From positions 1 through 64,000 of the forward strand of contig JAJOHG010000146.1 in NCBI GenBank assembly GCA_021029095.1: a stretch of DNA of 64,000 nt. The letters are read 5' to 3'. Below are positions 1 through 33,897 of the stretch, piece after piece. The notes under the pieces are model-generated. The model was not told the origin of the DNA, ran no database searches, and saw only the letters and a program-made list of their open reading frames with translations. The DNA is from Phellopilus nigrolimitatus (taxonomy: Eukaryota; Basidiomycota; Agaricomycetes; Hymenochaetales; Hymenochaetaceae). The stretch's first letter is position 1. Each line of letters starts with the position of its first letter. The translations under genes were made by a program, and so were the position numbers.

Positions 1-1
1 G

Positions 2-169
2 TCCATCATAAGTGATAACATATATGATGCGGCCTTTGCTGCTGCAAGGCTCGGAAAGAAATGTGATATTGTGGTCTTCGACTCCGTCCTGCCTGACTGG
101 CTAAGCGCCAACGGAATAACCTTGAGTTTTTCGACCCGGAAATTACACAAGGATAAGGTGTTGGCACAG
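2..169 (+). CDS. 3' end of an unknown gene (partial)
   Basis: The frame starting at base 2 is open from the window edge to a TAG at 167-169 and encodes about 55 residues of ordinary globular-looking protein (for example AAFAAARLGKKCDIVVFDS). There is no start codon, so this would be the last exon of a gene that begins outside the window. I do not recognise the family. The opposite strand is also open here, so the strand choice rests on protein-like composition only. Confidence 0.35.
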
Positions 170-528
170 TAGAGGGACAGCGTCTCCGAGTCCTCGCCAC
201 TTTGGATTTAATCGAATGAGAAAAACACACAGTTGCTGCGCTAGAGCAATCTCATAATGCCAGATCTCGTACGAAGGCAAGCGGAATTGACGAGTGCCAA
301 CCCCCAAGATAGAACTCGGCATTTCCGACTAGTCTTTATTCTTTATCAACAGCTATAAGGGAAAAAAAAAAAGAGAAAAGAAAGACGTTATGATCAATCT
401 ATTCCTTTCCGACACTCCAGGCTCGCACGTATTCCATGAAGTACATACCCTCCTTACGAACAACACACAGTTGTTAAAAGCCACAGCGAGGCATTTCGTA
501 TACATTTGCAAATTTCAATATGAGGACA
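170..528. other. intergenic
   Basis: No gene was recognised. An A-rich tract near 361-382 lies in the likely 3' region shared by the converging flanking genes. Confidence 0.4.
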
Positions 529-1819
529 CTACAGATGACCTCTGACCACCTTCGGGACATAACTAAAAAGAAAAAATATCAGTACCCGATCCCCCCAAAA
601 AACAAGAGAACGTGGCACGACATACGGCTCCTCGAGGTACTTGACCTCCTCCTCCGCGAGCACCTTGCCGTTGACGATCGCCCCTCCAGGCGCGCAGGCG
701 AGCTGACGCCGACGATGGGGCTCGCGACCTTCGTGTTGATCCACGCGAGCGCCACCTGGCTCATCGTCCAGCGACGCTTCTGCGCGACCCTCCTCGACGC
801 GCGCGATGATCGCGCGGTCCGCGGCGGAGTACTTGCGCTCCTGCGGCGTGCCCTTCGTCGCGTCGCGCCGCGCGGTGCTCTCGCTGACCGGGTACGCGAG
901 GTCGCCTGCCTGCAGCGGGCCCCACGGGATCAGCCCGATCCCGTGCGCGTTGCAGTATGGGATCATCTCGCGTTCCTGGTGGTGTGGCGGAAATCAATAG
1001 AGGGTCCGGGAAAAAAGGGAAGGCCACGCACGTCCTCGCGGTAGAGCAGCGAGTACTCGCTCTGCATGCTGACAAACTGCGTCCAGCCGTTCAGCTCCGC
1101 AACATGGTTGAGCTCCGCGAACTGCCACGCGCGCATCGAGCTCGCGCCGATGTAGCGCACCTTGCCGCTCCGCACGAGGTCGTGCAGCGCGCGCATCGTC
1201 TCCGCGGGCGGCGTGTGCGGGTCGAAGCGGTGGATCTGGAGGAGGTCGACGTACGGCGTGCCGAGGCGTGCGAGCGACGCGTCGACGGCGCTGAAGATCG
1301 CGCCGCGCGAGAGCCCGCACTGGTTCACGTAGTCGCGCACGTCGCGCAGCTCCGGGTGGAGGTGCGGGACCACGCTCGGGTCCTCCGGCACGACCGCGAA
1401 GCACTTGGTGAGGATCAGGAGCTTCGCGCGCGGGATGTTGTACTGGCAGAATAGACATCGTCAGCGAAGATTCATAATATACGGCGTGAGACCGGATGCA
1501 AGCACGCACCTGCTTGATAAACTTCCCAATGATCCGCTCGGACTCGCCGTTCGAGTATGCGTTCGCCGTGTCGATCGTCGTGACTCCGCGGTCCCACGCC
1601 GCCTTCAGCAGCGGGAGGGCCTGCATCAGACGTTCACGAGTAAGCTCGACTCTTACAGATGCTTGAGACGGAGAGTCGCACTTTGTCCTCGTTGATGACC
1701 CACGGCTGCCACTTGTCGCTGCCGAAGCTCATGGCACCGACGATGGGGACGGAAACGCGCAGGCCGGATGCGCCCAGGCGGCGGTACTCGACGGCCGGCG
1801 GCGCCTGCTTCTCTGACAT
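529..1819 (-). pseudogene. aldo/keto reductase, frameshifted
   Basis: An NADPH-dependent aldo/keto reductase of the fungal aryl-alcohol dehydrogenase type. It starts at 1819 ([19 protein letters not shown]) and runs over about four exons. The catalytic tetrad is visible: Asp and Tyr in [14 protein letters not shown], Lys in LILTKC, His in LLQIHRFD. In the last exon the expected protein needs two compensating frame changes. One extra base near 788 moves the reading into the MSQVALAWINTKVASPIVG frame, and a second shift near 690 returns it to AIVNGKVLAEEEVKYLEEPY. The family C-terminus is thus present but split between two frames. Either this is a young pseudogene or the sequence has two indel errors. 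The family is confident; whether the gene is active is not. Confidence 0.8.
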
Positions 1820-2349
1820 TGCGGGTTGGCGGTGTGGGGATTGGAGAGGCGGGGTGAGAGAAAGATACGGGAAAGCGGAGAGGGCAGCGATACCGCGGAC
1901 GCCCTTTATTTGAGTTCGGCATGGCTGGTGGTATGACCAACCGTGGTTCGTGAGAGCACATCGGATTCTAAGTATATCTGTCCACTCGCGTGGAGTGCTT
2001 TCTATTTCCAGGCCGAGCGCGAGCTGCTTAGGTCGGTCCTGCAGAGAACTAGGAGAGCCGAGCGACGCGCAGGTGCGTCATGGGGACAGGAGAATAACAC
2101 GCGTAGGGCGCGCAATGCTAGTCCGGGTTCATGTATCCAGTTCTAAATTCGCATTCACAGTTGAAGGCGATGGTATGTGCGCTCGCCAGCGGCGAATTTA
2201 AGGGAAGCAGGAAGCAAGTCGCAGCCGACAGTCTGGGCCGGCGCGAAGAGGCTCCGCGCAAGACAATGGCACAGGCGTCCTGAGCAGCGGATCGTCTCGC
2301 TCTCTGCGTATGAACGGGAGAGGTGTCACAGATGCGTGTTATCCTCAAT
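1820..2349. other. intergenic, promoter side of the reductase
   Basis: No gene was recognised. It should contain the aldo/keto reductase promoter and holds one copy of a dispersed repeat (2131-2256). Confidence 0.4.
2131..2256 (+). repeat. dispersed repeat, copy 1 (inverted partner at 38340-38462)
   Basis: The stretch tcatgtatccagttcta... through cgccagcggcgaatttaa... and on to ...gcagccgacagtctg is found again in reverse orientation at 38340-38462. The two copies share a head, a middle and a tail separated by small indels. No ORF is shared. It could be a SINE-like element or a solo LTR fragment. Confidence 0.55.
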
Positions 2350-2760
2350 TACGTAAGAGTCGTGACACGGTCTGCAATCCAGGATCGCCTCCAGCGCAGA
2401 CAAGCGCAATCCCGCAGGCGCGCTCGCAGCGCTCCATTCCCTTCTTCCGGTACGCCCAAGGCGGATATCCTGCGGCTCTCGTCTGAGATCGACAAGTGAG
2501 TGCGCCCATGCAAATATACCATATAGTATAAAGCGTGTTATCTTTTCTGACTTCGCGAAGACTAGCGACACAGCTCGGGCTGAGGACCTGCCTACAATCG
2601 CGGAGCATGCGCTCGGGAGCAGCTACGGCACGCGCTTCCCGGCGGTGTACGGATTCCTCGAGGGTCTGTATCACTTCTTCAGCGATGATGACGGCATCGC
2701 GGTGATGTCGAAACACGCCCGCAAAGGGTCCACCTCTAGCAGTCAAACTTCAACAAACAA
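2350..2760 (+). CDS. unknown small gene or gene fragment
   Basis: A possible intron (donor gtgagtgcgcc after 2495, acceptor near 2568) joins an upstream stretch to a protein-like exon containing LPTIAEHALGSSYGTRFPAV and FLEGLYHFFSDDDGIAVMSK. The join is in frame. No start or clear end is visible, and the frame runs into the duplicated block at 2812. I do not recognise the protein. It may be a remnant cut by the duplication boundary. Confidence 0.3.
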
Positions 2761-2950
2761 AGCTCTCGCAAAGAAAAAGATAAAAACGAGAAGGAGAGTG
2801 GCTCAGAAAGGACTAGAATGGGTTTTTGCCCCGGCAGATCGGAACGTTGACCAGGGAGTGGAGACCCGCACACAGATACTTTTCGCTCCACGCCTTGCGC
2901 AGAAATCCCACATCTGATTCGTATCGGGTTTACATTCAATTTGGTTTGGA

Positions 2951-4058
2951 TTACCCTAGCAACTTTCTACGAACCAAATTCCATAACCTCGAGATACACG
3001 TATACTGCTGCATCAACGACGTTTTCGTGCTAGCCCACTCGAATGCAAAGTTCGGCAGGTGGATGATCATGCTCAAGACGGACATGCTCTGGCTCGAAAA
3101 CCCGGTCGAGTACTTCGTGTTCTGCTTGCCAATCTGCTGTGTGAAGTACGGGTACTCCTGGCGCTGCACGGGGCCCATCGACGGCTACATATGCGCACTC
3201 ACATCGTACACGCACTTGCAGCTGCACGCACCAATGTAGCCCGTCACGACGGCGTGCAGCGGCGCGCCGTGGATCTTCGGCAGCGGCTTCCTGTTCGTCT
3301 CGTACGCAAGCAGCACCTCTTCGTTCGTGCGCACCTTGCGCCACGGCGCGGCTGCCGCGTAGTCGAGCACCTGGCCCTTCCGGGCTGTGCAAAAGGCGAT
3401 TTTACAGAGCGAGCGGGTGAGGGAGGACTCACGCAACACGCTTGAAGTAGATCTCGGCGCCGATGAGTTCGAGGTGCTTGCGTTCAGGATGGACGCCGTC
3501 ACAGGCGATATTCAGCACCTTCTTGAGCGGGACGCCTTCATGCACCGCCGTTCCGCTTGAATACACCCGCCAAAGCCCCGAAACGAAAAAAAAGAGTAAA
3601 GACGACGCACATGGTGCTCTCGCCCCACGGAGTATTGGTGAGCTCGTCTCCGTCACTGGGGTACTCCAGGATCTGCTCGATGTGCCGCACGCCGCTGCAC
3701 TGCAGCGTGACCGTCTTCTCACCCTGGCTGGTGTGCGGCACGTCAGCGGCCGCCGAAAAGGAGAAAGAAGGGAAAAAATAGGAAAATTGGCGTTGTACAG
3801 GAATTCTTCCGGAACTTTGAGGTCCTTGAGCGAGATGCTGTTGACGAGTCCGCCGACCTCATAGCAGAGGGCATCTTCGTCGATGTAGGGGACGCCGCCG
3901 TGGTTCCGGATGTTGACACCCGCAGACCCGGACGCACAAATGGTGCACGTTATCCGTGAGGTTCCCTTGCATGAGCTGGTCACTGCGCGTCTCATGGTTT
4001 CAACCACCCTAACCGGGCCCGGCTTCGACTGAACCAGCCCCGTCTCCGATCGACGCAT
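2951..4058 (-). pseudogene. sulfite-oxidase-like molybdopterin oxidoreductase, truncated (copy A)
   Basis: Pieces of the molybdopterin-binding domain appear in family order on the minus strand: RNHGGVPYIDEDALCYEVGG, then TVTLQCSGVRHIEQI (the family Cys that binds molybdenum is present, but the usual NRR after it is changed), then GVPLKKVLNIACDGVHPE, then PWRKVRTNEEVLLAYE and PKIHGAPLHAVVTGYIGA, then YFTQQIGKQNTKYSTGFS. A stop follows the GYIGA block, and the next block needs another frame. The N-terminus and the dimerisation domain are missing. Unit B has the same truncated gene, so the damage predates the duplication. It is almost certainly non-functional as an oxidase. Confidence 0.75.
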
Positions 4059-4465
4059 GCCCTAGTCAGACCGAGTACTCTGATCTCCTTTAGAGTCGTT
4101 TCAGAACCTGCGTATGCAACTGAAAAGCCGGATGTTGATGGTTTTCACGCTCTCCCCGCCTCATATTTCACAATTCTGTAACGGCGGGCACATAGTCAAA
4201 ATCTGAATTATACATGTAGCATACACTCTCAATCCTCCAACGAGACACGACCCAGTATCCCAGAAACAGAAATCAGGAATAAAGATACACGGATTGGAGG
4301 ACGTCGTGCAGCGCGCCACCGATGCAAGCCTCGAGCGCGATGGTAGAAAGTGCATAAAGTAATTAGAAGGAATAAGTATAGAGCGATTGAGTAGTGTCAC
4401 GGTGAGCAGGTGTGCCAGCAGGCGAGCAGGTGGTGACGAACAAGCGAATTCTCAGCACTTCAGCA

Positions 4466-4485
4466 GTAGGTAGGTAGGTAGGTAG
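4466..4485 (+). repeat. TAGG microsatellite
   Basis: Five uninterrupted units of a TAGG/GTAG tetranucleotide. The same array is in unit B near 30828-30846. Confidence 0.85.
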
Positions 4486-4672
4486 TTTATTACCGGAACG
4501 GTCCCATTAAGGAACACCGGCTTGTCAACTACTATACAATTAACACACCCGGGTAAATTATGACCACTGACCATCTCACATAATTTGCTCCTGGATGCTG
4601 AGAAAGAGAAACACAGGGTAAGTAACTACTAATCATAAATCTGTATTGTCTCGTTCCGTTTCAATGTCTGAT

Positions 4673-4894
4673 TCAGCCAATTGGTCTGTGCCATGTGGGA
4701 TGAAAGAAAGGTTGCTCTTCAAAGACTTTTTGTATGTCAAATGAGACCTTAGCCAGAAGCTGGATAATCTGCTTCTCATGGTACAATTTGTGAAAGATGT
4801 CTGCAGGGGACCAAGACATATTGAGCAGAGAGGGGCATGCAGCTTTGGCTTTGTCCATGGTGACCACAAAAAGAGGGTATGAGAACATACACAT
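4673..4894 (-). CDS. unknown 73-aa ORF, conserved in unit B
   Basis: The ORF starts MCMFSYPLFVVTMDKAKAAC and contains SWSPADIFHKLYHEKQIIQL. Its counterpart at 31034-31255 differs by one residue. It lies about 200 bases downstream of the CaaX gene stop on the same strand, past an AATAAA signal. It could be a short separate gene, an unrecognised exon or simply 3' flanking sequence in the most conserved part of the duplication. No family was recognised. Confidence 0.25.
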   Translation of the reverse strand: MCMFSYPLFVVTMDKAKAACPSLLNMSWSPADIFHKLYHEKQIIQLLAKVSFDIQKVFEEQPFFHPTWHRPIG

Positions 4895-4959
4895 GAAATT
4901 TACCGTTGCAACTGCACTTGGCTGCTGTGGTCAGGTGGTGAACACTGAAAATTCATAAC

Positions 4960-4965
4960 TTTATT
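4960..4965 (-). terminator. AATAAA poly(A) signal of the CaaX gene (copy A)
   Basis: Reading the minus strand, AATAAA lies about 140 bases after the TAG stop of the CaaX gene. It is conserved in unit B. Confidence 0.5.
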
Positions 4966-5102
4966 GGATTCTGTAAGTCAGTGTGACTCTTGGAAATCCA
5001 CATCAATCTCATTTGGAAAGCAGCAGCATAAATGAACATAATAGAACTTGAATAGTGCTAGAGCTACCTTTTTATCAACAAGAGCTACATAAATTACTGA
5101 TA

Positions 5103-7115
5103 CTAAGAGATGAGACAACATTTCTCTTTGGGCCTGAGTGAGCAACATGAGTTACTTGGCTAGTTCGATACTCCAATGCTTACCTTTGTGCTGACTCTCC
5201 TCTGAGCTTGCTGGAATCTGGCCCTAATTCACGTTCAATGTAATGCGGTGCTTCCCTGTGTTCATCATAATATTCCTTGAGAATATATGACTAATTCTGA
5301 TGCTATAATGCTTACCATTGTGCTGGCTGTTCTCTGAGCCCACTGTAATATTCCTTGAGAACATATGACTAATTATGATGCTCTAATGCTGACCTTTGTG
5401 TTTGCTGGGGATTTTTGCGACCTTCCATAAAACAGGAACTGGTTTGCCAATGCATTAACTCAATGATTTCAGATGGTGTCCCTGAGTATGCAGCAATATC
5501 ATTGTTGCTCTCAACAGTCATTGTTGGATTCCTTGTCACTGTGTATTTGGTTTGTGTGTGATAGAAGGAATGTCAGGTTTCCATGTAATCCCAGAAAAGA
5601 AATTTCACAGCTTACATCTGATACACACCATCTCCACCCCCATATGTATGAATCTTTTGTAGTAGATTTTACAACCCTTTTGCTCTTTAATTTCAACTTA
5701 AAGAACAATACACTGGTCAGTAACATAGGCAATTTCTGGGGGGAAAAATCCCAGCTTTGCATCAGCCTGAAGCACACTCCAAGCTACTCACTGAAGTAAT
5801 GATACCTCATTTCTTCCTCAAGCACTTTCAAGTCATCATTGTTCTTGTCCATAAGGATATTGGGTGTAATCTCTGTAAAGTTGCCTTTTGCTTTATTTAT
5901 AACAACAATCAAAGGCTTTTGGCACTTTCAGTGTCTGACACATGTGCAGCTCTAGTCACAAACTCACTTTGCACATGCCTGGAATTATCTTATAATAACT
6001 GTAAAAATGAAATAACTTTATGATTGCAGATGGTGTCCCTGAGAGTGCAACCCAATCTTTATTGGTATTGCCTTTAATAATCCTTGTTGGATTATTTGTC
6101 ACTGTATATTTTGTATGCATGTGATAGAAAAATAGGTCAGCTCTCCATGTAGTCTTTTCAAAAGGAGTTCCACAGCTTACCTCTGACACACACCATTTCT
6201 ACTCCATTATCAATGAATATTTTATAATAGAATCTGTACCCTTTCTGTGCAACTTGAAAAAACAGCACTAGTCAGTAACATGTACAACCACTGGAAGCAA
6301 AGCACAGTCTGGGACCAGGCAGAAGCATAATTCAAACTGCTCACAGTCATGCTCTTCCATTTCCTCCACAATGTACTTCAAGTCACCATTGTTCTTAAGG
6401 ACTTCAGTTGTAATCTCTGTGAATCCACCTTCTGCCTTATCTATGATTCTCAACCGGGACTGTTGGCACATCTCAGGATCTCAGGTGTTTCAGAAATTCA
6501 GATCTAGACACAGACTCACTCTGTACATATTCTTAACTTGAAACACGAAGAACTCCTCATCACGATGCATTAATTCAATAATTTCAGATGGTGTCCCTGA
6601 GTACACAATAACATCATAATTACTGTACTCTTCATGCCTTCTTACTGTGCATTTGGTACATATGAGATAGAAGGATTATGTCAGATCTCTATGTAGTCCC
6701 TTCAGGAGAAACTCTGCAGCTCACATCTGAAGCACACCATGTTCTTGCCATCATGTCTGAATCTTTTATAGTTGAGTTTGCATCGCTGATGATGATAACC
6801 GCCCGAGGCTTTAAGAAAACAGAACAAATCAACATCGTGGACAAACACTGGTAAGATTGCCCGGTTTGCAACCCGGCAGAAGCACAAATACAATTTACTC
6901 ACACGTGTGATGCCATTCTATTTCCTGTGCAGCATCCTCCAAATCATGATTGCTCTCAAGGATATCTGGTGTAAGCTCTGTAAATTCTCCTTCCGCTCTA
7001 TCTATGGCTCCCCGCCAAGCCTGTCGGCAATCTCAGGGTCATCTGAGGCATTTTGCAGTTCAAGTCACAGACTCACTTCATCCATTTCTTCGAAACCGCG
7101 TGCCTTAAGTGCCAT
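5103..7115 (-). CDS. unknown modular protein with C-terminal CaaX box, copy A (13 exons, 388 aa)
   Basis: No known family. Exons by GT-AG borders: 7115-7077, 7020-6903, 6808-6725, 6644-6520, 6459-6345, 6252-6181, 6101-5968, 5915-5792, 5696-5616, 5538-5394, 5342-5316, 5255-5184, 5133-5103. They join in one frame with no stop. After MALKARGFEEMDE come three repeats of about 107-117 residues (14-122, 123-229, 230-346), each from three exons with the same phases (1, 1, 0; the last differs at its end). Conserved blocks are I-x-(K/R)-A-(E/K)-G-x-FTE(I/L)T, YYKRF...(V/N)EMVC(I/V/F)R and (Y/L)SGTPS(E/A)II. The tail ends RPKEKCCLIS: Cys-aliphatic-aliphatic-Ser predicts farnesylation, and the neighbouring Cys could be palmitoylated as in Ras. 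There is no signal peptide or membrane span. A cytosolic protein tethered to a membrane is inferred. Splicing is inferred from sequence only. Confidence 0.7.
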
Positions 7116-7216
7116 CTTTTAAGTAAGTTGATTTTCAAGTTTGAGAACTTTTTGAGATTGATTAAGAGGGGCTGTTATGCTGCTTGCAATTGACGGAGTT
7201 CAGAGAAACGTACAAG

Positions 7217-7227
7217 ATTTTATATGT
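7217..7227 (-). promoter_or_regulatory. TATA-like box of the CaaX gene (copy A)
   Basis: On the minus strand catataaaat lies about 105 bases upstream of the ATG at 7115. A TATAAAA occupies the same relative place in unit B (32509-32515). The surrounding 7116-7690 holds no other recognisable gene. Confidence 0.45.
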
Positions 7228-7689
7228 GAAGCGCCAAGCAGCAAAGCGCACACCGAAGCCTGCCTCGCGACGGTCACCCGCTTTGCGGAGCATACGAGAA
7301 TGTGCGATGTGCCAGAGCATTGCAGTGGCGAGGCTTCGTTACCTGGGGAGCGACATCGTATGCGTGGTAGTTTGCTGCTTCTTGGCGTTGGCTCTTGACG
7401 ACTTGCAGCAGCCCCATTTGGGCCTTTCTGCCTCCATGCATCACAACGAGCGACATTACTTGCAAATCGGTACTTCGTTTGGGGCAGCCGGCGTCGACGA
7501 GTCCTTTGCTGTCCTCGGGAACCGTGCATTCTTTGTACTAGTTTTGCAATCAGACGAAGCAAACTGGATACAGATCGCCACAAGGCTGCACAGCAGACAT
7601 ACAATCCAAGCAATCGTCGAAGCTGGTCCGCAAAGCTAATTATTGGGCACGCAAAGCGGTACAATGTTGAGGTAGTGGACGAGCCTGGA

Positions 7690-8075
7690 AGTGGATCGTC
7701 GTCAGAACGGAAGCGAAAGGGTCTGTGTTGAGCGGCGCAGGCGGACCTCGTATTTGAGGCTGGCGACGTTCTTGCAGACGCGCAACGGTTTCACGACGTC
7801 CTGAGATATGGATATGAGCAAATGTATGGGAAGACGTACGTTCGGTTCGAGCGCGAGTCCGCTCACAGTTTACGGTCTATTCGTCCATGTCCAGCGGGGC
7901 GCCGACGGAGGTCATGTCGGCCGAGTCCAGGAATCTCTTCATCGACACAACTAAGAAAGTCAATGCGTACAAGCAGACAAGCCGTGGTCGAGCCGTACGT
8001 ATGGTGCTTCAAAGTAGTGCTCGACAGTACGTGCGAGGAAGGGCAGCCGCTATCGAAACTCCGCATTGTCAGGCT
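7690..8075 (-). pseudogene. flavin reductase fragment (unit A, degenerate)
   Basis: Two exon-like pieces match the intact flavin reductase at 8733-10046: FLDSADMTSVGAPLDMDE (compare FLDAANSTSVDAPPDVDE) followed by an in-frame stop, and a piece resembling VKPPRVRESAASFECE. The remaining exons are absent. Unit B carries the same remnant at 33000-33270, so it was present before the duplication. Confidence 0.65.
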
Positions 8076-8732
8076 GCCGAGTGTCAGCGAAACTCATGCG
8101 TCTTTACGAAATGAAATACCGTTGTCCAACGCCATAGTATACTGTAGATACACACATATGGAGGCGAGACGGCACCGGCGCGGCGTCGAACATGCCTCCG
8201 AGTCCCCGGGCAGACGAACAAATACTGTGCAAGAAGAGAGAACACAACGACCGACACAGGAAATAAAATGTAAAGAAAAAGAAAAAGAATGGGCCAATTG
8301 AGTTTCCTCTACACATATCCATCCGCTTCCGCCGATACGGCGCGTTCTGCGTCCTCGCCCATGCTCGGCCGCCGACCACCGCGCCGCTGCTTTCCTCTCA
8401 CAGTCGCACCTCACATCCTCATCTGCGCGCGGATTTCCTGCGTCTGCGACACGCCATCAGAAACGCCACCCACGGCTGCGCATACTAGCCGCAGACTGTC
8501 CCTGCTATTCAAACAAGCATACTCTGAACCGCAGGGCTAGCAGGCAAACCAGAATATTGCTTGGAATATCTCCTTGCTTCCGGGAGACGTCATTTCAGAT
8601 TGCCTCTGTCAGAAGTCCAGATTGCAAAACCTGTGGCACTTGGGGAAGGAGTTCTGAGGATTTTTGTTTAAAGTGTACAATATTGACGTAACGCAAGGAA
8701 ACGGAGAGCTCAACGACTTTACGGCAGGGTGG
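8076..8732. other. no gene recognised
   Basis: The first 350 bases match unit B 33420-33720. An A-rich run lies near 8270-8290. Nothing coding was supported. Confidence 0.4.
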
Positions 8733-10046
8733 CTACGTTTCCCCCTCCTTCTCTCCCTTCTTCCTATCAATCAACTTGCGCACCTCGTCCCCCCTCTCGT
8801 GCCACGCCAGGCGCGGGATGTCCACGCCCGGGCCGACGCGCGCATACGTGCTCCCGCCGAGGCGGCTCACGGCGCGCAGCGCGGCCGGGTCTGCTTGCAC
8901 ACCGTCGGGCGCGAGGACGGCGTGCCGCACGTGCGCGCGGCGGATGCGGCCGAGGATGAGCGTGTGCGTCGGCGGCGCGCCGGGCGACGCGATGTCGAGG
9001 TGCTGGAAGAGCTAGGAAATATTTTTGTCTCAGTTCATAGGCGTCCTTTTTATTTTGCTTTGAGTGAGAAAGGCAGACCTCGCATTCGAAGCTGGCGGCG
9101 CTCTCGCGAACGCGCGGTGGTTTAACGACGTCCTGTCAGAGAATAGGTATGTATCTTATGTGACTAAGAACACGAAGAGACGTACGCTTGGTTCAGATGT
9201 GAGCCCACTCACGGTCCACTCGTCGACATCGGGTGGGGCGTCGACGGAGGTCGAATTGGCCGCGTCCAGGAACCTATTCATCGAAACAACCGAAATCATG
9301 TAAATAAGTAGAAGCAAGGGACAGATAGACAAGCATGTGCACGTACGGCTCACTGATGATGTTCACGACGAACTCCTTCGTCAATATTATGTTCGCAGGC
9401 GTGTCCTTCGGCCCGTCGGGCTGGATGACGAAAGAAACACTGAGCAAAGGCGGGTCATGCGAGATCTGCTATGAATGAGCGGCTAGCAGTGCTTGGAGGC
9501 ACATTTCATTAACGGACCAGTGAGAAATAGCTGAGAGCGTGGTGATCAGATATATGTGGCCGGGCTCGAAGAGGCGATTTAGCATACCTGAAAGGCGCCA
9601 GGTTGGGCACACCGTCCTCCGAGAGCGTCGAGACGAGTGCGATTGGCCGGGGCGTCACCGTCGAGATCAACATCCTATACGCCAGGCTGCACATTTATTC
9701 ACGAGGAGAGTCGCGGAAGATGCGAATTTGGGACGTACTACTTCTCCATCGCGTCGAGGTCGAACGTCTTCCACCCGAGCGCCTCGCCCGTCTTCCATTC
9801 ACGCGCGAGCGCAGATGCGTCCCCGAGCCCGCCTCCCAGCGGCCATCTTTCATCCGGGCTCCCGGACCACCGGAACGCAGGCGCGGGGTCGAACGGCGGC
9901 GCCTTCGACGACGACGATATTTGCGGCGAAGAGCTCGAGAGCGTGCGCGAGCCGGTGACGGCGCGTAGGGTCACATGTGTCAGCGTCGGCCGGCTGAATC
10001 TTACTATTGGGGCTGCACGCAACGATAGCTTTGGGAGGACGTCCAT
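8733..10046 (-). CDS. flavin reductase-like domain protein (FMN-binding split barrel)
   Basis: A member of the fungal flavoprotein-oxygenase / DIM6-NTAB type family, which binds FMN in a split beta-barrel. About six exons join in frame from MDVLPKLSLRAAPIVRF at 10046. The next blocks are PPFDPAPAFRWSGSPDERW, AYRMLISTVTPRPIALVST (the flavin-binding signature region), NLAPF, then FVVNIISEPFLDAANSTS, VDEWTVSGL, VKPPRVRESAASFECE and LGGSTYARVGPGVDIPR, with a stop at 8733. Introns have good GT-AG ends. The first 50 residues are rich in Arg and Ser and may be a mitochondrial leader. It is divergently paired with an Fe-ADH gene across 188 bases, an arrangement repeated in units B and C. It is the only apparently intact copy here. 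Confidence 0.8.
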
Positions 10047-10234
10047 CGTACGCGTTTGGCGGAGGCATGCGACACTGCTACTTATAAATAATGCAGCAGT
10101 GACCGAGTCGTTGCTGATGAATCATTCACATGGAGGACGAGGCGTCGCAGGCCCGCGACATCGTTTATGCGCGACTTTCTTTCCCCGCGCTGCGTAATCG
10201 CCCCACCCCGCTGCCTGTTCTGCTACGTACCAAC
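10047..10234. promoter_or_regulatory. shared divergent promoter, flavin reductase / Fe-ADH
   Basis: 188 bases separate two divergent start codons (10046 minus, 10235 plus). The same intergenic sequence recurs in unit B (about 34149-34330), which supports a functional unit in the ancestor. No specific factor site is claimed. Confidence 0.45.
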
Positions 10235-10405
10235 ATGTCGAGCGACGCGCCAGACTCGACGCTGAGCAGCTCGTACGCGTACACTGACACGCTCAAGGGC
10301 GTCTACTATGGACCCGGCTGCCTCACGGTCGCGCTCCCGAAGCTGCTCGCGACGCTCGGTGCGACGAAGGCGTTGGTCGTCACATGCAGGAGCCTGCACG
10401 AGAAG
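10235..10405 (+). pseudogene. iron-containing alcohol dehydrogenase, exon 1 (copy A)
   Basis: The exon reads MSSDAPDSTLSSSYAYTD... with GVYYGPGCLTVALPKLL and ATKALVV, as at the N-terminus of fungal Fe-ADH / maleylacetate-reductase-like proteins. It ends at the donor gtgcgtag after 10405. The gag-only LTR element was inserted ten bases into that intron. The acceptor and exon 2 are now at 28879, 18.5 kb away. Confidence 0.75.
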
Positions 10406-10415
10406 GTGCGTAGTG

Positions 10416-10603
10416 TGTTGTAATTTCGGTAGCTTAGTGCCGTGAGACGTAGACAAAAGCAATAGAATTTACGTTTGACCTGCTGAGCTCTGAGGCAAAC
10501 GGATAAGAGAAAACATACATGCACGGCACATACTTATACTCTACGGACCGATAAGAAACAAATAAACAAAGATGACGCAACGATCGAGCTCGTCATTCCA
10601 ACA
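10416..10603 (-). repeat. LTR of the gag-only element (left, intact)
   Basis: 188 bp with TG...CA ends, adjoining TSD TAGTG on its left. It matches the split right LTR. Confidence 0.9.
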
Positions 10604-10687
10604 CACCCCCTCGAGCGAAGCATCGTTGGCAATAAGTAAGAATAAAAACAAATGAAGAAAAGATGCGAAAGAAACAATAAAAAGTAT

Positions 10688-13600
10688 CTACCAAAGGTCC
10701 GAGTCGGAGAGCGAGTCGACTTCGTCGGCGCACGCGGCGGTGTCGGGGTCCTCGTCGACTGCGTTGGCGATGTCGTCTTCGAGCGACGGACAGACTTTTG
10801 TAATACTGTGAAGAAGTCCGGCTCAGTCTCGGCAGTACAAGACTCGATTTAGCTAGCTACCTGTGAAGAAGTCCGGCTAATGTACAGGTAGTTAGAAATG
10901 AATAGAAACGGATCACGATACAACGGAGCGCTCACCTCAGTCTCGGCGGTACAAGACTGAGGTGCGCATATAGTCAGGAAATTTTACTTGTAGTCAGCTG
11001 CACGGGCCATTTATCAATAAGGAAATAGAAAATAATAAAAGGAAACTCGTTGCCACCAAACGCCACCGACACGCGAGCTGCTTATGTCACGCGTGCCGTC
11101 CTTTATTCTCAACACTCCCCCTCAGCTCGCCGTGTCAATTCAATCCGAGCAGGTTGACACAGATCCAGTGGGCAGCCGGCGGAAGCGGTTTAGTAAGCAG
11201 ATCCGCAGGGTTGCGATCACCGCGGACGTGGATAAACTCGATTCGGTGTTTCTGGACTTCGTCACGTATGTGATGGACTGGGATATCTATATGTTTAGTA
11301 CGCGAATGAAACACTGGATTGGCGGCCATTTGGATTGCCGCCTGGTTATCCACGTGAATCTTGATGGGTTGGGTGCCAAATCCACGTCCAATCTCTTCAA
11401 AAAAATTACGCAACCATAGGGCCTCGCGAGTGCAATGTGACGCCGCCAAATACTCTGCTTCTGCCGTTGATGTGGCGACCACGTTTTGCTTTTTAGCTTT
11501 CCATCCGATCGGTCCTCCATTGAGAAGGAAAACGTAGCCGCCAATAGATTTTCTGTCTCCGAGGTCTCCGGCCCAGTCGGAGTCAGAGTATCCGATCGGC
11601 TTGTCCATCCCTGCTCCCCCTCGATAGACGATCCCTAAATCAATAGTACCCTTAAGGTACCGTAATACGCGCTTCCCTGCTATCCAATGGACCAATTTGG
11701 GCTTTTTAAGGAAACGTGCTAGTATGTTCACCGCTAGTACGACATCGATTCGGAGTACTGTTGCCAGGAACAGGAGTTCTCCGATTAGACTAGAGAACGG
11801 CCAGGGTGGTGAATCGAAACCCTCTGATTTGTCACGATCAAAGATCGCTAGCGCGTTGCGCGCCATCGGTGTCTTCACGGTGTTTGCATCGAGAAGTCCG
11901 TACTTTTCGAGTGCACGCTTGATCTTAATCGGTGCCGAGATTTTGACCCAACCTTCTTTGGCGTTCTTCTCGACCGTTAAGCCCAATTGAATGGCTTTTT
12001 GTGACGTGAATTTCTCCTTAAATTGGAAATCGGACCCTATGTCCGCTTTGAATCTAGCAGCTTCGACTCCTTCAGACGCCGACTTACACGCGGCAGTGCA
12101 GTCGTCTACATGCGTTGCCACAATTGTCTCCCCCTCGGCGTCTGAACGGCGGTAGACGCTGGGAGCGGAGATCAATCTCTGGTAGCCGTGGCGGTCTAGA
12201 CGCCCCGAGAGATGATCTGCCCAGGCCCGAGCACCCTGACGTAGTCCGTATAGAGCCCGATCAAGGTGACACACAGGGTTGGCAATATTTGCTGGGGCAT
12301 GGTCAGTAAGACCGGTTGGAAATTCGACAACGAGGTTCTTCTCGTCAAGTGGACTGTGAAGATAAGCCGAATTGATGTCAATAGTAACAAGATCGGACGT
12401 AGTCTCGGCACTGAGTGCCATAACGATTTTGGCAGCGACATAATCACCAGATGCTGCGAAGGTTTCATCGAATTCTAGCCTGGGGACTTGAGAATCGCCA
12501 CGTGCGACCCATCGTGCGCGATAATCGAGTGACCCGTCGGCATTTTCTTTGATATTGAAAACCCACATTCCTTGTATCACGTGCAAATCTTGTGGGCACG
12601 GGATAATTGTCCACACGTCCATGTCCACGAGCTTACCAAGCTCATACAACATTTGTTTCTTCCAGTGCCCGCGTTGCGGGGACGAAAGGGCCTCATTAGC
12701 GGAACGGGGAATTAAAATACCTGCCACAGAGCGTCGAGCATTTGTGGCATTAACTCGCTCATCCTCGCCAGGAGGATTGTCTAAATGCGCAAGTGTTTCC
12801 TGCTGCTCAACACCAGCCGCACGGCGATCCGTCGACTTAGGGACTCGTCCGGATCTGCGAGGATTAACCTCGACAGGATCGACATGTGCGGGGGGAGCGC
12901 TCTCATCGCCGTCCAGGACTTCTGGCTCGGAAAGGAATGGGCCATCCTCCGAGTCTGAGTCATCATCGGCGATGTACTCGTTCACTGTGGGCTTTCGGCG
13001 AGTGAATCGGCCCTGCTCATCAAACAAAACGTCACGCGAAAACGTAATTTCGCGAGTGTCAGGGTTCATCACTTTCCACGCTGCGTCATCACGAACACCG
13101 ACAAAAATACCACGGAGCGCCTTAGGATCAAGTTTCTTTCGTAGTTCCGGCACGACTCGTACGTACGCAATACATCCGAAGATGCGGAGATGCCCGACGT
13201 CCGGTTTACGTTTGTGTAGAATTTCGTAGGGGGTTTTGCCGGGATCCAAAAAGGCAGTACTAAGTCGATTGTGACAAAACGTGAAATACGCGTAAGCTTC
13301 TGCCCAGTAAGCGCGCGGCAAATTTGCAGTTTGAAGCATAGATCTGACGGCGTCGGCGCCCGTACGGTTCATTCTCTCGGCTAACCCATTTTGTTCGTGA
13401 CGGTGTGGAGCCGTGAGGCGATGATTGATACCGTTTTCGATATTGTATGCATTCATATCTCCGTTGACAAATTCTGTCCCATTGTCAGAGTGTAGGGCAC
13501 GCGTCGTCACGTCAAATTGAGTTTTCATGAATGCCACTACCGTCTTCCATTTTTCCAGGACGGCCTCGCCCGTCTTGTCCTTTAGTGCGTATTGAAAAAG

Positions 13601-29118: not shown

Positions 29119-29305
29119 GCGTCTTGCTTCTTCTTCCTCTTTACTTATCTGAGTGTCTTAGAAAAAACTAGAATGGGTTTTTGCCCCGGCAGATCGGAAC
29201 GTTGACCAAAGAGTGGAGACCCGCACACAGATACTTTTCGCTCCACGCCTTGCGCAGAAATCCCACATCTGATCTGTATCGGGTTTACATTCAATTTGGT
29301 TTGGA

Positions 29306-30363
29306 TCACCCTAGCAACTTTCTACGAACCAAATTCCATAACCTCGAGATACACGTATACTGCTGCATCAACGACGTTTTCGTGCTAGCCCACTCGAATG
29401 CAAAGTTCGGCAGGTGGATGATCATGCTCAAGACGGACATGCTCTGGCTCGAAAACCCGTTCGAGTACTTCGTGTTCTGCTTGCCGATCTGCTGTGTGAA
29501 GTACGGGTGCTCATGGCGCTGCACGGGGCCTATCGACGGCTACATATGCGCATTCACGTCGTACACGCACTTGCAGCTGCGCGCATTAATGTAGCCCGTC
29601 ACGACGACGCGCAGCGGCGCGCCGTGGATCTTCGGCAGCGGCTTCCTGTTCGTCTCGTACGCGAGCAGCACCTCTTCATTCGTGCGCACCTTGCGCCACG
29701 GCGCGGCTGCCGCGTAGTCGAGCACCTAGCCCTTTCGGGTCGTGCAAAAGGCGATTTTACAGAGGGAGCGGGCGAGGGAGGACTCACGCAACACGCTTGA
29801 AGTAGGTGTCGGTGCCGATGAGTTCGAGGTGCTTGCGTTCAGGATGGACGCCGTCACAGGCGATATTCAGCACCTTCTTGAGCGGGACGCCTTCATGCAC
29901 CGCCGTCCCGCTTGAATACACCCGCTAAAGCCCCCAGACGAAAAAAGGAGTAAAGACGACGCACATGGTGCCCTCGCCCCACGGAGTATTAATGACCCCA
30001 CGGAGTATTGATGAGCTCGTCGTCGTCACTGGGGTACTCCGTGATCTGCTCGATGCGCTGCTCGCCGCTGCACTGTACCCTGGCTGGTGTGCGGCAGGTC
30101 AGTGGCCGCCGAAAAGGAGAAAGAAGGGAAGAAATAGGGAAATCGGCGTCGTACAGGAATTCTTCCGGAACTTTGAGGTCCTTGAGCGAGATGCTGTTGA
30201 CGAGTCCGCCGACCTCATAGCAGAGGGCATCTTCGTCGATGTAGGGGACGCCGCCGTGGTCCCAGATGCTAGCACCCGCAGACCCGGACGCACAAATGGT
30301 GCACGTTGTCCGTGAGCTTCCCTTGCATGAGCTGGTCGCGGCGTGTCTCATGGTTTCAACCAC
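29306..30363 (-). pseudogene. sulfite-oxidase-like molybdopterin oxidoreductase, truncated (copy B)
   Basis: The same blocks as copy A: HGGVPYIDEDALCYEVGG, VQCSGEQRIEQITEYPSD (Cys kept, following residues changed), GVPLKKVLNIACDG, KIHGAPLRVVVTGYINA. There are additional small indels, and a duplicated cccacggagtattgatga stretch near 29985-30015. It ends at the same truncated C-terminus as copy A. Non-functional as an oxidase. Confidence 0.75.
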
Positions 30364-31033
30364 CCTAACCGGGCCCGGCTTCGACCGAAACCAGCCCCAT
30401 TTCCAATCAATGCATGCCCTAGTCAGACCGAGTACTCTGATCTCCTTTAGAGTCGTTTCAGAACCTGCGTATGCAACTGAAAGGCCGGATGTCGATGGTT
30501 TTCACGCTCTCCCCCCCTCATATTTCACAATTCTGTAACGGCTGGCACATAGTCAAAATCTGAATTATACATGTGTGTAGCATACACTCTCAATCCTCCA
30601 ACGAGACACGACCCAGTATCCCAGAAACAGAAATCAGGAATAAAGATACACGGATTGGAGGACGTCGTGCAGCGCGCCACCGATGCAAGCCTCGAGCGCG
30701 ATGGTAGAAAGTGCATAAAGTAATTAGAAGGAATAAGTATAGAGCGATTGAGTAGTGTCACGGTGAGCAGGTGTGCCAGCAGGCGAGCAGGTGGTGACGA
30801 ACAAGCGAATTCTCAGCACTTCAGCAGTAGGTAGGTAGGTAGGTAGTTTATTACCGGAACGGTCCCATTAAGGAACACCGGCTTGTCAACTACTATACAA
30901 TTAACACACCCGGGTAAATTATGACCACTGACCATCTCACATAATTTGCTCCTGGATGCTGAGAAAGAGAAACACAGGGTAAGTAACTACTAATCATAAA
31001 TCTGTATTGTCTCGTTCCGTTTCAATGTCTGAT

Positions 31034-31255
31034 TCAGCCAATTGGTCTGTGCCATGTGGGATGAAAAAAAGGTTGCTCTTCAAAGACTTTTTGTATGTCA
31101 AATGAGACCTTAGCCAGAAGCTGGATAATCTGCTTCTCATGGTACAATTTGTGAAAGATGTCTGCAGGGGACCAAGACATATTAAGCAGAGCGGGGCATG
31201 CAGCTTTGGCTTTGTCCATGGTGACCACAAAAAGAGGGTATGAGAACATACACAT
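31034..31255 (-). CDS. unknown 73-aa ORF, copy B
   Basis: Counterpart of 4673-4894 with one residue changed (Ala for Ser after KAAC-P). The same reservations apply. Confidence 0.25.
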   Translation of the reverse strand: MCMFSYPLFVVTMDKAKAACPALLNMSWSPADIFHKLYHEKQIIQLLAKVSFDIQKVFEEQPFFHPTWHRPIG

Positions 31256-31463
31256 GAAATTTACTGTTGCAACTGCATTTGGCTGCTGTGGTCAGGTGGT
31301 GAACACTGAAAATTCATAACTTTATTGGATTCTGTAAGTCAGTGTGACTCTTGGAAATCCACATCAATCTCATTTGGAAAGCAGCGGCATAAATGAACAT
31401 AATAGAACTTGAATAGTGCTAGAGCTACCTTTTTATCAACAAGAGCTACATAAATTACTGATA

Positions 31464-32422
31464 CTAAGAGATGAGACAACATTTCTCTTTGGGCCTGAGT
31501 GAGCAACATGAATAAGACAAGAAAACAGTAATAGTCTATGAGTGAACATGTGACTGATTCTGATGCTCTAACACATACCTTTTTGCTGGATTTTCTCCAC
31601 CTTCACTGTAATATTCCTTGAGAACATATGATTAATTCTGATGCTCTAATGCTTACCTCTGTGCTGGCTGTCCTCTGGGCTCTCTGTAATATAGCTCTTC
31701 CCTGTATTCATTTTAATATTCCTTGAGAATATATGACCAATTCTGATGCTCAAATGCTTACATTTGTGCCGACTGTCCTCTGTAATTTGGCTCTTCCCTG
31801 TATTCATTTTAATATTCCTTGAGCACATATGACTAATTCTGATGCTCTAATGCTTACATTTGTGCTGGCTGAACTGTTGGACCCCTGTAATGATACCAAT
31901 AGCCTGTTCTCATCTCCGCAAATGCCGAACGCAGCATACCCTTGTTCATACACCAAAAGGCATCATATATACGGCCATCTTTCACTATGTATGTGTCATA
32001 GTTTATAGAAGGAATAGGTCAGCTTCCATGTAGTCTCTTGAAACATTTCACAGCTTACCTATGACGGCCTGAAGATCCATGTGCAAAGTGTGACTGTAAT
32101 ATTCTAGGCTGTAGAGTTTGCTATCTTTCTTCTCTGCAGCCGCCCCTTCAAAGAAACAGAATTGGTCAGCAACATGGACAATTACGAGCGCAGTCGCCCA
32201 AATGACCCACAAATGTAGATTGCTTTGACATCTTCAATAAAAGGCTCAAAGATTTTGGGTTCGTTGACTGTTATCTCTATCCATTCGGCTCTTGCATTTA
32301 CTACCTCTTTTGCTACTCCTTCATCCGTAGGCCAAGACTGTATTTTCGACACTTCTCAGGATCTGAGGCACTTTTAGCCATGGTCACAGACTTACCCCGG
32401 TCAAATTGGTGCCCAAAAGCAT
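31464..32422 (-). CDS. unknown modular protein with C-terminal CaaX box, copy B (8 exons, 168 aa)
   Basis: Exons 32422-32396, 32337-32211, 32145-32059, 31984-31858, 31797-31762, 31701-31657, 31605-31579 and 31494-31464 join in one open frame with the same intron phases as copy A. MLLGTNLTG is followed by one module whose first exon keeps A-R-A-E-W-I-E-I-T (compare copy A D-R-A-E-G-E-F-T-E). The second and third exons are hardly alignable by eye. The tail has three micro-exons of 36, 45 and 27 nt, after a third module exon that itself ends PTVQPAQ. Two give MEEPNYRGQSAQ and MEELYYREPRGQPAQ. The last exon is identical to copy A: RPKEKCCLIS, a predicted farnesylation site. The exon 2 donor gtgggt is weak but the only one that keeps frame. 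Function unknown. Confidence 0.65.
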
Positions 32423-32508: not shown

Positions 32509-32515
32509 TTTTATA
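32509..32515 (-). promoter_or_regulatory. TATA box of the CaaX gene (copy B)
   Basis: TATAAAA on the minus strand about 90 bases upstream of the ATG at 32422, matching the position in copy A. The rest of 32516-32999 shows no gene. Confidence 0.45.
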
Positions 32516-32999
32516 CGCGCACACCGAAGCCTGCCTCGAGACGGTCGCCCGCTTTGCAGAGCATAGTAAAATGCGTAATGCGCCAGAGTATTGCAGTGGC
32601 GAGGCTTCGTTGCCTGGGGAGCGACATCGTATGCATTGTAGTTTGCTGTACCTTGGCATTGGCTCTTGACAACTTGCAACAAACGGCTCCATTTGGGCCT
32701 TTCTGCCTCCATGCGTCACAGCGAGCGGCATTACTTGCAAACCAGTAGAAAGCTCAACTTTGATTTTCTTCATCTGGAGCAGCCGGCGACAACGAGTCCT
32801 TTTCTGTCCTCGGGAATCGTGCATTCTTTGTGCTAGTTCTGCAATCAGACGAAGCAAACTGGATACAGATCGCCACAAGGTTGCACAGCAGACATACAAC
32901 CCAAGCAATCATCGAAGCTGGTCCGCAAAGCTAATTATTGGGCACGCAAAGCGGTGCGATGTTGAGGTAGTGGACGAGCCTGGAAGTGGATCGTCGTCA

Positions 33000-33290
33000 G
33001 AACGGAAGCGAAAGGGTCTGTGTTGAGCGGCGCAGGCGGACCTCGTATTTGAGGCTGGCGGCGTTCTCGCAGACGCGCAATGGTTTCACGATGTCCTGAG
33101 TTATACATGTATATGAATATGAAAGAATGAAGGCACTGGAAGACGTACGTTCGGTTCGGGCGCGAGTCCGCTCACAGTTCACGGACCATTCGTCCATGTC
33201 CAGCGGGGCGCCCACGGATGTCATGTTGGCCGCGTCCAGAAATCTCTTCATCGACACAACTGAGAAAGTCAATGCGTAAAAGCAGACAAG
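33000..33290 (-). pseudogene. flavin reductase fragment (unit B)
   Basis: FLDAANMTSVGAPLDMDEWS and VKPLRVCENAASLKYEVRL match two exons of the intact gene at 8733-10046. Other exons are missing. It is the counterpart of 7690-8075 in unit A. The following 33291-33897 holds no recognisable gene. Confidence 0.65.
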
Positions 33291-33897
33291 CCGTGGTCGA
33301 GCCGTACGTCTGGTGCTTCCAAATTATCAAGTAAATAGTGCTCAACGAGTCTGTGTGCCTTGCGCAAGGGAAGGGCAGCCGCTGTTGAAGCTCCGCAGTG
33401 TCGGGCTGTCGAGTGTCAGCGAAACTTATGCGTCTTTTAAAAAGGAAATACCGTTGTCAACGCCATAGTATACTGTAGATACATATGGAGGCGAGACGGC
33501 ACCGGCACGGCGTCGAACACACCCCCGGGGCAGAAGGGTTATTGTGCAAGAAAAGATAACACAGCCGACACAGAAAATAAGATGGAAAGAAAAAGAAAAA
33601 GAATGAGCCAATTGAGTTTCCTATACACATTGTATCTATCCGCTACCGTCAATACGGCGCGTTCTGCGTCCTCACCCATGCTCGGCCGCCGACCACCACG
33701 CCGCTGATTTCCTCTCACACTCATTCGACATCGAGAAAGGCAAGGGGGAAGGGAAATGGGAAGCAAGAAACAGAGGAGAAGGACAATTTGAACCACTCAG
33801 ACCACTCACACTCGCACTCACACTCGCATTCGCTCTTTGACGGCCACTTGAAGATGACGGCCTCCTGCCATCGAACCCCGCCCATATGAGCCCGCAC

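Follow-up and report, generated by a model that had tools for sequence, protein, structure and literature searches.

What kind of protein is encoded by a thirteen-exon gene of the wood-decay fungus Phellopilus nigrolimitatus (Hymenochaetales) that repeats a three-exon unit in tandem and appears to end in a CaaX box, and how does such a gene change over time? The gene, here called gene A, lies on the minus strand within the first 64,000 nucleotides (nt) of contig JAJOHG010000146.1 (GenBank assembly GCA_021029095.1), a stretch referred to below as the window, where an earlier note made from the letters alone had proposed a lipid-anchored repeat protein of a new family. Comparison of gene A with its relatives elsewhere in the genome points to a family that keeps its promoter, introns and tail but changes or exchanges its core exons. 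Since promoters and introns are more alike than coding cores in most copies compared, and some members have predicted lipid anchors, its likely role is to provide cell membranes with recognition proteins that can change.

Rebuilding the gene model on the minus strand from 7115 to 5103 reproduced the 13 exons, the 388 codons in a single open frame and the GT-AG borders claimed earlier, with 12 introns of 50-95 nt each. The module exon lengths given at that time (118/84/125, 115/72/134 and 124/81/145 nt) match the rebuilt model, and the shared phases at the module borders recur in it, where each module, 107-116 residues long, has phase 0 at its start and phase 1 at its inner exons. The conserved sequence blocks described there do recur, but they vary by module (NYKRF/YYKIF/YYKRF; NMVC/EMVC; SGTPSEII/SGTPSAII). 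The parts of the gene are as follows:

5103..7115, minus strand: gene A, 13 exons, 388 codons plus stop, three modules and a predicted CaaX tail
7077..7115, minus strand: exon 1 (start exon) of the rebuilt model
6520..7020, minus strand: module 1, exons 7020-6903, 6808-6725 and 6644-6520
5968..6459, minus strand: module 2, exons 6459-6345, 6252-6181 and 6101-5968
5394..5915, minus strand: module 3, exons 5915-5792, 5696-5616 and 5538-5394
5184..5342, minus strand: tail exons 11 (5342-5316) and 12 (5255-5184), partial repeats of one another
5103..5133, minus strand: exon 13, encoding KEKCCLIS, a predicted CaaX farnesylation signal
7218..7224, minus strand: TATAAAA box, read from the sequence, some 103 nt before the ATG

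An independent DNA repeat comparison found three repeat copies about 550 nt apart in gene A; because these span exons and introns alike, the gene, as read from its DNA, grew via tandem copying of a genomic three-exon unit. The tail region is also repeated (5252-5329 versus 5330-5407, 82%), and the 5' region around the TATAAAA box is common to genes B, C, D, E and other members. Further support comes from a protein search, which retrieved DFH11DRAFT_1566348 (P0001) of the same species, 98% identical to the gene A protein over 88%. This unnamed hypothetical protein of 343 residues is the product of an allele of gene A located on another contig, C112 (2,267,646 bases). It starts at Met 11 of gene A and has introns 1-9 as in the rebuilt model, thereby supporting the modules independently; the exon-10 donor is left unspliced in it, and translation ends after ALEHHN, without the CaaX exons 11-13. 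A second deposited protein, DFH11DRAFT_1599044 (P0002), corresponds to an allele of paralogue D.

The 5' region of D has 27 matches in the genome, alleles included. Three paralogues on C112 illustrate the range of forms: B (2.132 megabases, Mb) has 14 exons, 393 residues and three modules and ends in KYCAIS; D (2.083 Mb) has 8 exons, 243 residues and two modules and ends in RQCLIS; and C (2.078 Mb) resembles D, but its frame is broken by a length difference of 2 nt. In all, this contig of 2.268 Mb carries nine members between 2.077 and 2.202 Mb, namely B, C, D, F, I, J, K and the alleles of A and E. The core motif, phases 0/1/1 and shared intron places characterize the hand-built models of A, B, D and E, and a constrained four-exon search recovered a coherent model with the same features at 19 of 24 further sites, E included. 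These four-exon models are mostly single-module, with 100-180 residues and a short start exon. The five sites without an automatic model are J, L, N, O and V, of which J, inspected by eye, looks like a normal member without a CaaX end. The 22 models used below comprise A, B, D and the 19 from the search, with E taken from its hand-built model; among these sites F/Fp/G/Gb, H/M, Q/R2 and R/S/T are near copies and hence non-independent, the four-exon model of K does not keep the family's frame and was not trusted, and that of X is weak. Thus, the tandem repeat architecture described earlier is true of gene A but does not define the family, 19 of the 22 models being single-module and 15 lacking a CaaX end.

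A contrast emerges when exons are compared with introns. Between A and B, 950 of 1055 positions are identical over 11 exons (90.0%), as against 688 of 718 in introns (95.8%). In 16 of 18 pairs of members the exons show less similarity than the introns, with Fisher p < 0.05 in 14 (Q-R2 is reversed and H-M near identical); these pairs are not independent of one another and include the weak model of X. As divergence is blockwise, circular shifts of the exon/intron labels were applied to 12 pairs, and exons proved less alike in 11 of them, eight at 5% or less: 0 of 1772 shifts for A-B, 1 of 546 for W-X, 8 of 550 for K-Kp, 55 of 1245 for C-D, and zero for D-P, D-Q, R-Q and W-P. At the same time the reading frame has been retained. 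The aligned codons of A and B hold 141 substitutions, with the frame of B open to its own CaaX stop; when these changes were placed at random 2000 times, a mean of 5.7 stops arose, and only 0.25% of the placements were free of stops (P 0.0025). Over the 11 exons compared, the exon indels measure 6, 12, 3 and 3 nt, all multiples of 3, as opposed to intron indels of 1, 1, 1, 15 and 1 nt. The absence of stops and the in-frame indels together indicate that the protein is kept. Between the older modules of A and D the ratio of non-synonymous to synonymous substitution rates (dN/dS) is 0.31-0.74, with dS near saturation there.

A second family member inside the window, gene E, was absent from the earlier note:

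31464..32422, minus strand: gene E, 8 exons, 168 residues, one module of another core class, same CaaX tail
32422-32396, 32337-32211, 32145-32059, 31984-31858, 31797-31762, 31701-31657, 31605-31579 and 31494-31464, minus strand: exons of gene E, hand-built model
32509..32515, minus strand: gene E TATAAAA box, read from the sequence, some 87 nt before the ATG
2796..5150, no strand assigned: 3' flank of A; its duplicate at E is 29151-31511 (95.0%, about 2.4 kilobases, kb)
29151..31511, no strand assigned: 3' flank of E, copy of 2796-5150
7246..8402, no strand assigned: 5' flank of A; its duplicate at E is 32517-33719 (85.6%), with partial copies at other members
32517..33719, no strand assigned: 5' flank of E, copy of 7246-8402

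A and E sit within a segmental duplication, and the 3' flank matches at full length in 4 of 25 matches, namely A, E and their C112 counterparts. A 108-nt stretch that includes the last exon is identical in the two, giving both genes the same CaaX exon and E the C-terminus RPKEKCCLIS. Thus A and E share their 5' region, intron positions and CaaX tail but enclose unlike cores: the core of E matches those of H (E value 2.7e-8) and P (6.8e-6), and the third module of A at only 0.011. Furthermore, intron 2 of E shows 86% similarity to introns 2 of H and P, against 40-50% to the corresponding introns of the A modules. The simplest reading of these sequences is that a core of another class was placed in an A-type chassis, or the reverse; alternatively, one copy may have diverged fast. 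The upstream stretch 7310-8410 accompanies many family members, and its 31 genome matches imply a duplicating unit larger than the gene. Both genes form AT-rich islands, with a GC content of 0.405 for A and 0.413 for E versus 0.528 for the window.

A CaaX end is found in 7 of the 22 models: CLIS in A, D and E, CAIS in B, CTLQ in R, and CTVM in S and T, the last two variants having Thr at the first aliphatic position. The X residues of these ends are of the kind that favors farnesyltransferase. In A, B, D and E the assignment depends on predicted splicing, and exons 11-13 are the least secure part of the gene A model. With splice scores trained solely on core introns, CaaX is the top-scoring tail end in E (of 47 distinct ends) and in B (of 54), while R, S and T reach it without tail introns. 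R and S share DNA up to TGTTGTAC and continue in unlike sequence, ending CTLQ and CTVM; the last codons thus vary among members with the CaaX retained. S and T differ in the copies of a tandem tail unit (about three versus one) directly before the CaaX end. The last 20 residues carry a net charge of +1 to +4 in the six CaaX members scored, and among seven other members scored H has +2 and the rest 0 or negative. No 19-residue stretch exceeds a mean hydropathy of 1.4 in the 13 proteins scored, so that they look cytosolic. Prenyltransferase-family genes are present in the genome, the beta subunit of farnesyltransferase not being singled out among them, and some family members are likely farnesylated.

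The window corresponds to contig C53 (64,149 bases). Over 3001 nt around gene A this contig matches C112 at 99.8% identity, and it probably represents the other haplotype of that region. Similarly, C112 at about 2.125-2.148 Mb has its counterpart in contig C266, with 99.7% identity over 7 kb around B; C266 carries a second, inverted F-type gene (G) at the place where C112 has I and J, a difference for which misassembly is possible (the comparison covered parts 1-3000, 3400-10400, 10500-14500 and 16700-20500 of C266). In the allelic pair K/Kp, exons are 67.3% and introns 82.8% alike, whereas the flanks reach 96.5% in the 400 nt upstream and, on the downstream side, 86.1% for the initial 600 nt and 97.3% further out; this comparison of unlike alleles rests on one individual. 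Exon 2 differs by 8 nt in length between them, for which reason one of the two is probably broken.

Three homologue searches, among them the search of proteins with one module proposed earlier, returned only P0001 and P0002, both from Phellopilus. The single-module profile did not return member Q, present in the genome and within the length limits; hence Q probably lacks an annotation, and the failure to find the family in other fungi counts for little. Pfam scans of A, of one A module and of nine members gave nothing above cut-off, with no HET, NLR or other known domain. Sub-threshold candidates were DUF3258 in A (E value 0.0084) and DUF493 (0.045), DUF7081 (0.023), MIF4G_like (0.13) and Nairovirus_NSm (0.14), which differ between members. 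PDB searches by sequence or profile gave, in turn, a best E value of 0.57, no match and a best E value of 0.056. An AlphaFold2 model built with the two deposited sequences (mean predicted local distance difference test score, pLDDT, 65.7) has three helices, three strands and one helix per module; a fold search with this low-confidence model gave weak, tied matches to potato multicystatin, PUR repeats, SAS-6 and ribosome-hibernation factors, and the lack of a clear match carries no weight. As far as testable, therefore, the earlier suggestion of a new family is borne out, with no Pfam match above cut-off, no convincing PDB relative and homologues from Phellopilus only.

Several observations weigh against the reading of fast-renewed, membrane-held cores. 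The A-B dN/dS is 0.95 (interval 0.68-1.42), not above 1, and dS (0.139, inflated by a poorly aligned tail) exceeds the intron divergence; point-wise positive selection is therefore unsupported, and segment exchange or intron constraint must contribute. Intron constraint or conversion could produce the exon/intron contrast. In the circular shifts D-I (5.5%), D-F (13%) and R-T (31%) stay above 5% and Q-R2 is reversed, and introns 1 and 3 of E do not discriminate between core classes. Hypervariable loops were considered and rejected, the A-B changes falling in helix (29 of 133), loop (23 of 104) and strand (17 of 90) with no loop enrichment. Gene A is almost unchanged between haplotypes (5 mismatches in 3001 nt), and K is probably a broken allele. 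Finally, both deposited models lack the CaaX exons; the lipid anchor proposed in the earlier note holds as a prediction, CaaX being the best-scoring end in B and E, but in A the CaaX end comes no higher than seventh among 38 ends (28.4 versus 31.3 for the best) and in D it requires an acceptor under the score cut-off.

In light of these results the best-supported picture is one of small, cytosolic modules, some of them predicted to be prenyl-anchored, whose surface would be renewed by swapping or multiplying cores in a constant chassis, the selecting force possibly being recognition at mycelial fusion or defence. For gene A itself we tentatively favor, at somewhat below an even chance, a membrane-held recognition protein with a farnesylation-predicted tail and a reading part renewed by core exchange. 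The CaaX cysteine would be farnesylated, and nearby basic residues, joined in A and E by a second cysteine, would help to hold the protein at the inner membrane face. A recognition conflict, whether between self and non-self mycelia or against a virus, parasite or selfish element, may favor new cores, which ectopic exchange within the constant promoter-and-tail chassis could supply, and three modules in a row might increase the binding surface or the avidity. Where CaaX is lacking, members would represent a soluble form of the same modules, a form that read-through at the exon-10 donor may also give for A and B. The full scheme, in which promoter, introns and farnesylated CaaX tail form a chassis for at least two classes of swapped three-exon cores, tandem in A, yielding haplotype-specific membrane-held sets for self/non-self recognition or parasite blocking, we regard as doubtful though worth stating.

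The same data might reflect an ordinary, weakly constrained orphan family of this lineage, shaped by duplication and drift, its introns kept for splicing or by conversion, with no recognition role. The A-B dN/dS of about 1, the broken copies C and probably K, and the lack of relatives outside the species in the homologue searches would all fit. Nevertheless, such a family appears unlikely, given zero stops where 5.7 were expected, exon indels in multiples of 3 in 4 of 4 cases when 4 of 5 intron indels are not, dN/dS well below 1 between the older A and D modules (dS near saturation), and a CaaX retained under four spellings. It is also conceivable that CaaX is an accident of splice choice and that the true proteins are soluble and end at the read-through stop, as both deposited models do and as the low rank of the CaaX end in A and the sub-threshold acceptor in D would allow; this we consider very unlikely, because CaaX scores best in B and E and is reached in R, S and T without tail introns. 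Proteins of the wtf family span membranes, unlike the 13 scored proteins, which have no strongly hydrophobic stretch, and no paired poison and antidote forms were seen, none having been specifically sought. Accordingly, a selfish killer family that spreads by destroying meiotic products lacking it is decidedly unlikely here, even though the copies are clustered, partly broken and haplotype-specific and show mosaic exchange, as described for the wtf meiotic drivers of Schizosaccharomyces (PMC6526906). Least probable of all would be precursors of lipopeptide signals, in which the modules would serve solely as the precursor portion and the cleaved CaaX tail would leave the cell as a pheromone-like peptide. 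A Glu-Arg pair, a processing motif in basidiomycete pheromones, does lie upstream of the CaaX in R, S and T. Fungal mating pheromones end in CaaX, and a CaaX precursor with repeated motifs is known in Trichoderma (PMC3068285). However, PF08015 is unmatched in A (E values up to 10) and R (up to 1), its sole genome match being below cut-off on contig C46; the 18 STE3 receptor matches fall on five contigs (C13, C38, C80, C322 and C533) and none on C112 or C53; the modules of 107-116 residues are predicted to be folded, and models without CaaX exist.

Among the systems compared, the closest in manner are the three-finger toxin genes of snakes, in which, by the process termed ASSET, introns stay alike and exon segments are exchanged with the fold kept (PMC2474615), just as the exons of the Phellopilus family are less alike than its introns. 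However, the toxins are secreted, disulfide-rich animal proteins, in contrast to the cytosolic-looking, in part putatively lipid-anchored Phellopilus proteins, no homology was found, and a dN/dS above 1, expected of such accelerated families, is not seen between A and B. The wtf drivers are likewise a quickly changing, clustered family with non-allelic exchange (PMC6526906), but the proteins are different ones. Dependence on a C-terminal CaaX or farnesyl group is documented for the GBPs and the long form of ZAP in animal defence (PMC7240152, PMC8568172), which are other proteins, the sequence relation being judged from Pfam scans. In fungi, het genes have diverse alleles maintained by selection for non-self recognition (PMC11138114, PMC9262711); the Phellopilus family differs in having no HET, NLR or other Pfam domain. 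In the open-licence PubMed Central literature searched, the loci DFH11DRAFT_1566348 and DFH11DRAFT_1599044 are unnamed, and fungal families with conserved introns and fast exons or orphan families with CaaX ends were not among the matches listed, as far as their excerpts go; a population-genomics paper mentioning P. nigrolimitatus concerns genomes of other species (PMC12878558).

Two retroelements and a long reading frame make up the surroundings described in the window. A Copia-like retrotransposon, assigned by eye from open reading frames at 11135-13945 and 14000-15463, occupies 10795-15847 between genes A and E, with direct repeats at 10795-11115 and 15527-15847 that are 99.1% identical. 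At 16093-23710 lies a Gypsy-type element with gag, reverse transcriptase, RNase H, integrase and chromodomain frames and 508-nt repeats that are 99.2% identical. The 1197-codon frame at 54885-58478 has a C-terminal match to the Mcp5-type PH domain and probably encodes an ordinary cell-cortex protein.

Many members of this family are seemingly missing from protein databases, which calls for caution in surveys of orphan genes. Families with exons diverging faster than introns are best known from venom toxins; the occurrence of one in a wood-decay fungus, cytosolic-looking and with predicted lipid anchors, suggests an arms race within mycelia that has not been recognized before. To our knowledge, few vegetative incompatibility genes have been described in basidiomycetes, and the partly haplotype-specific clusters of this family offer direct candidates for such genes.
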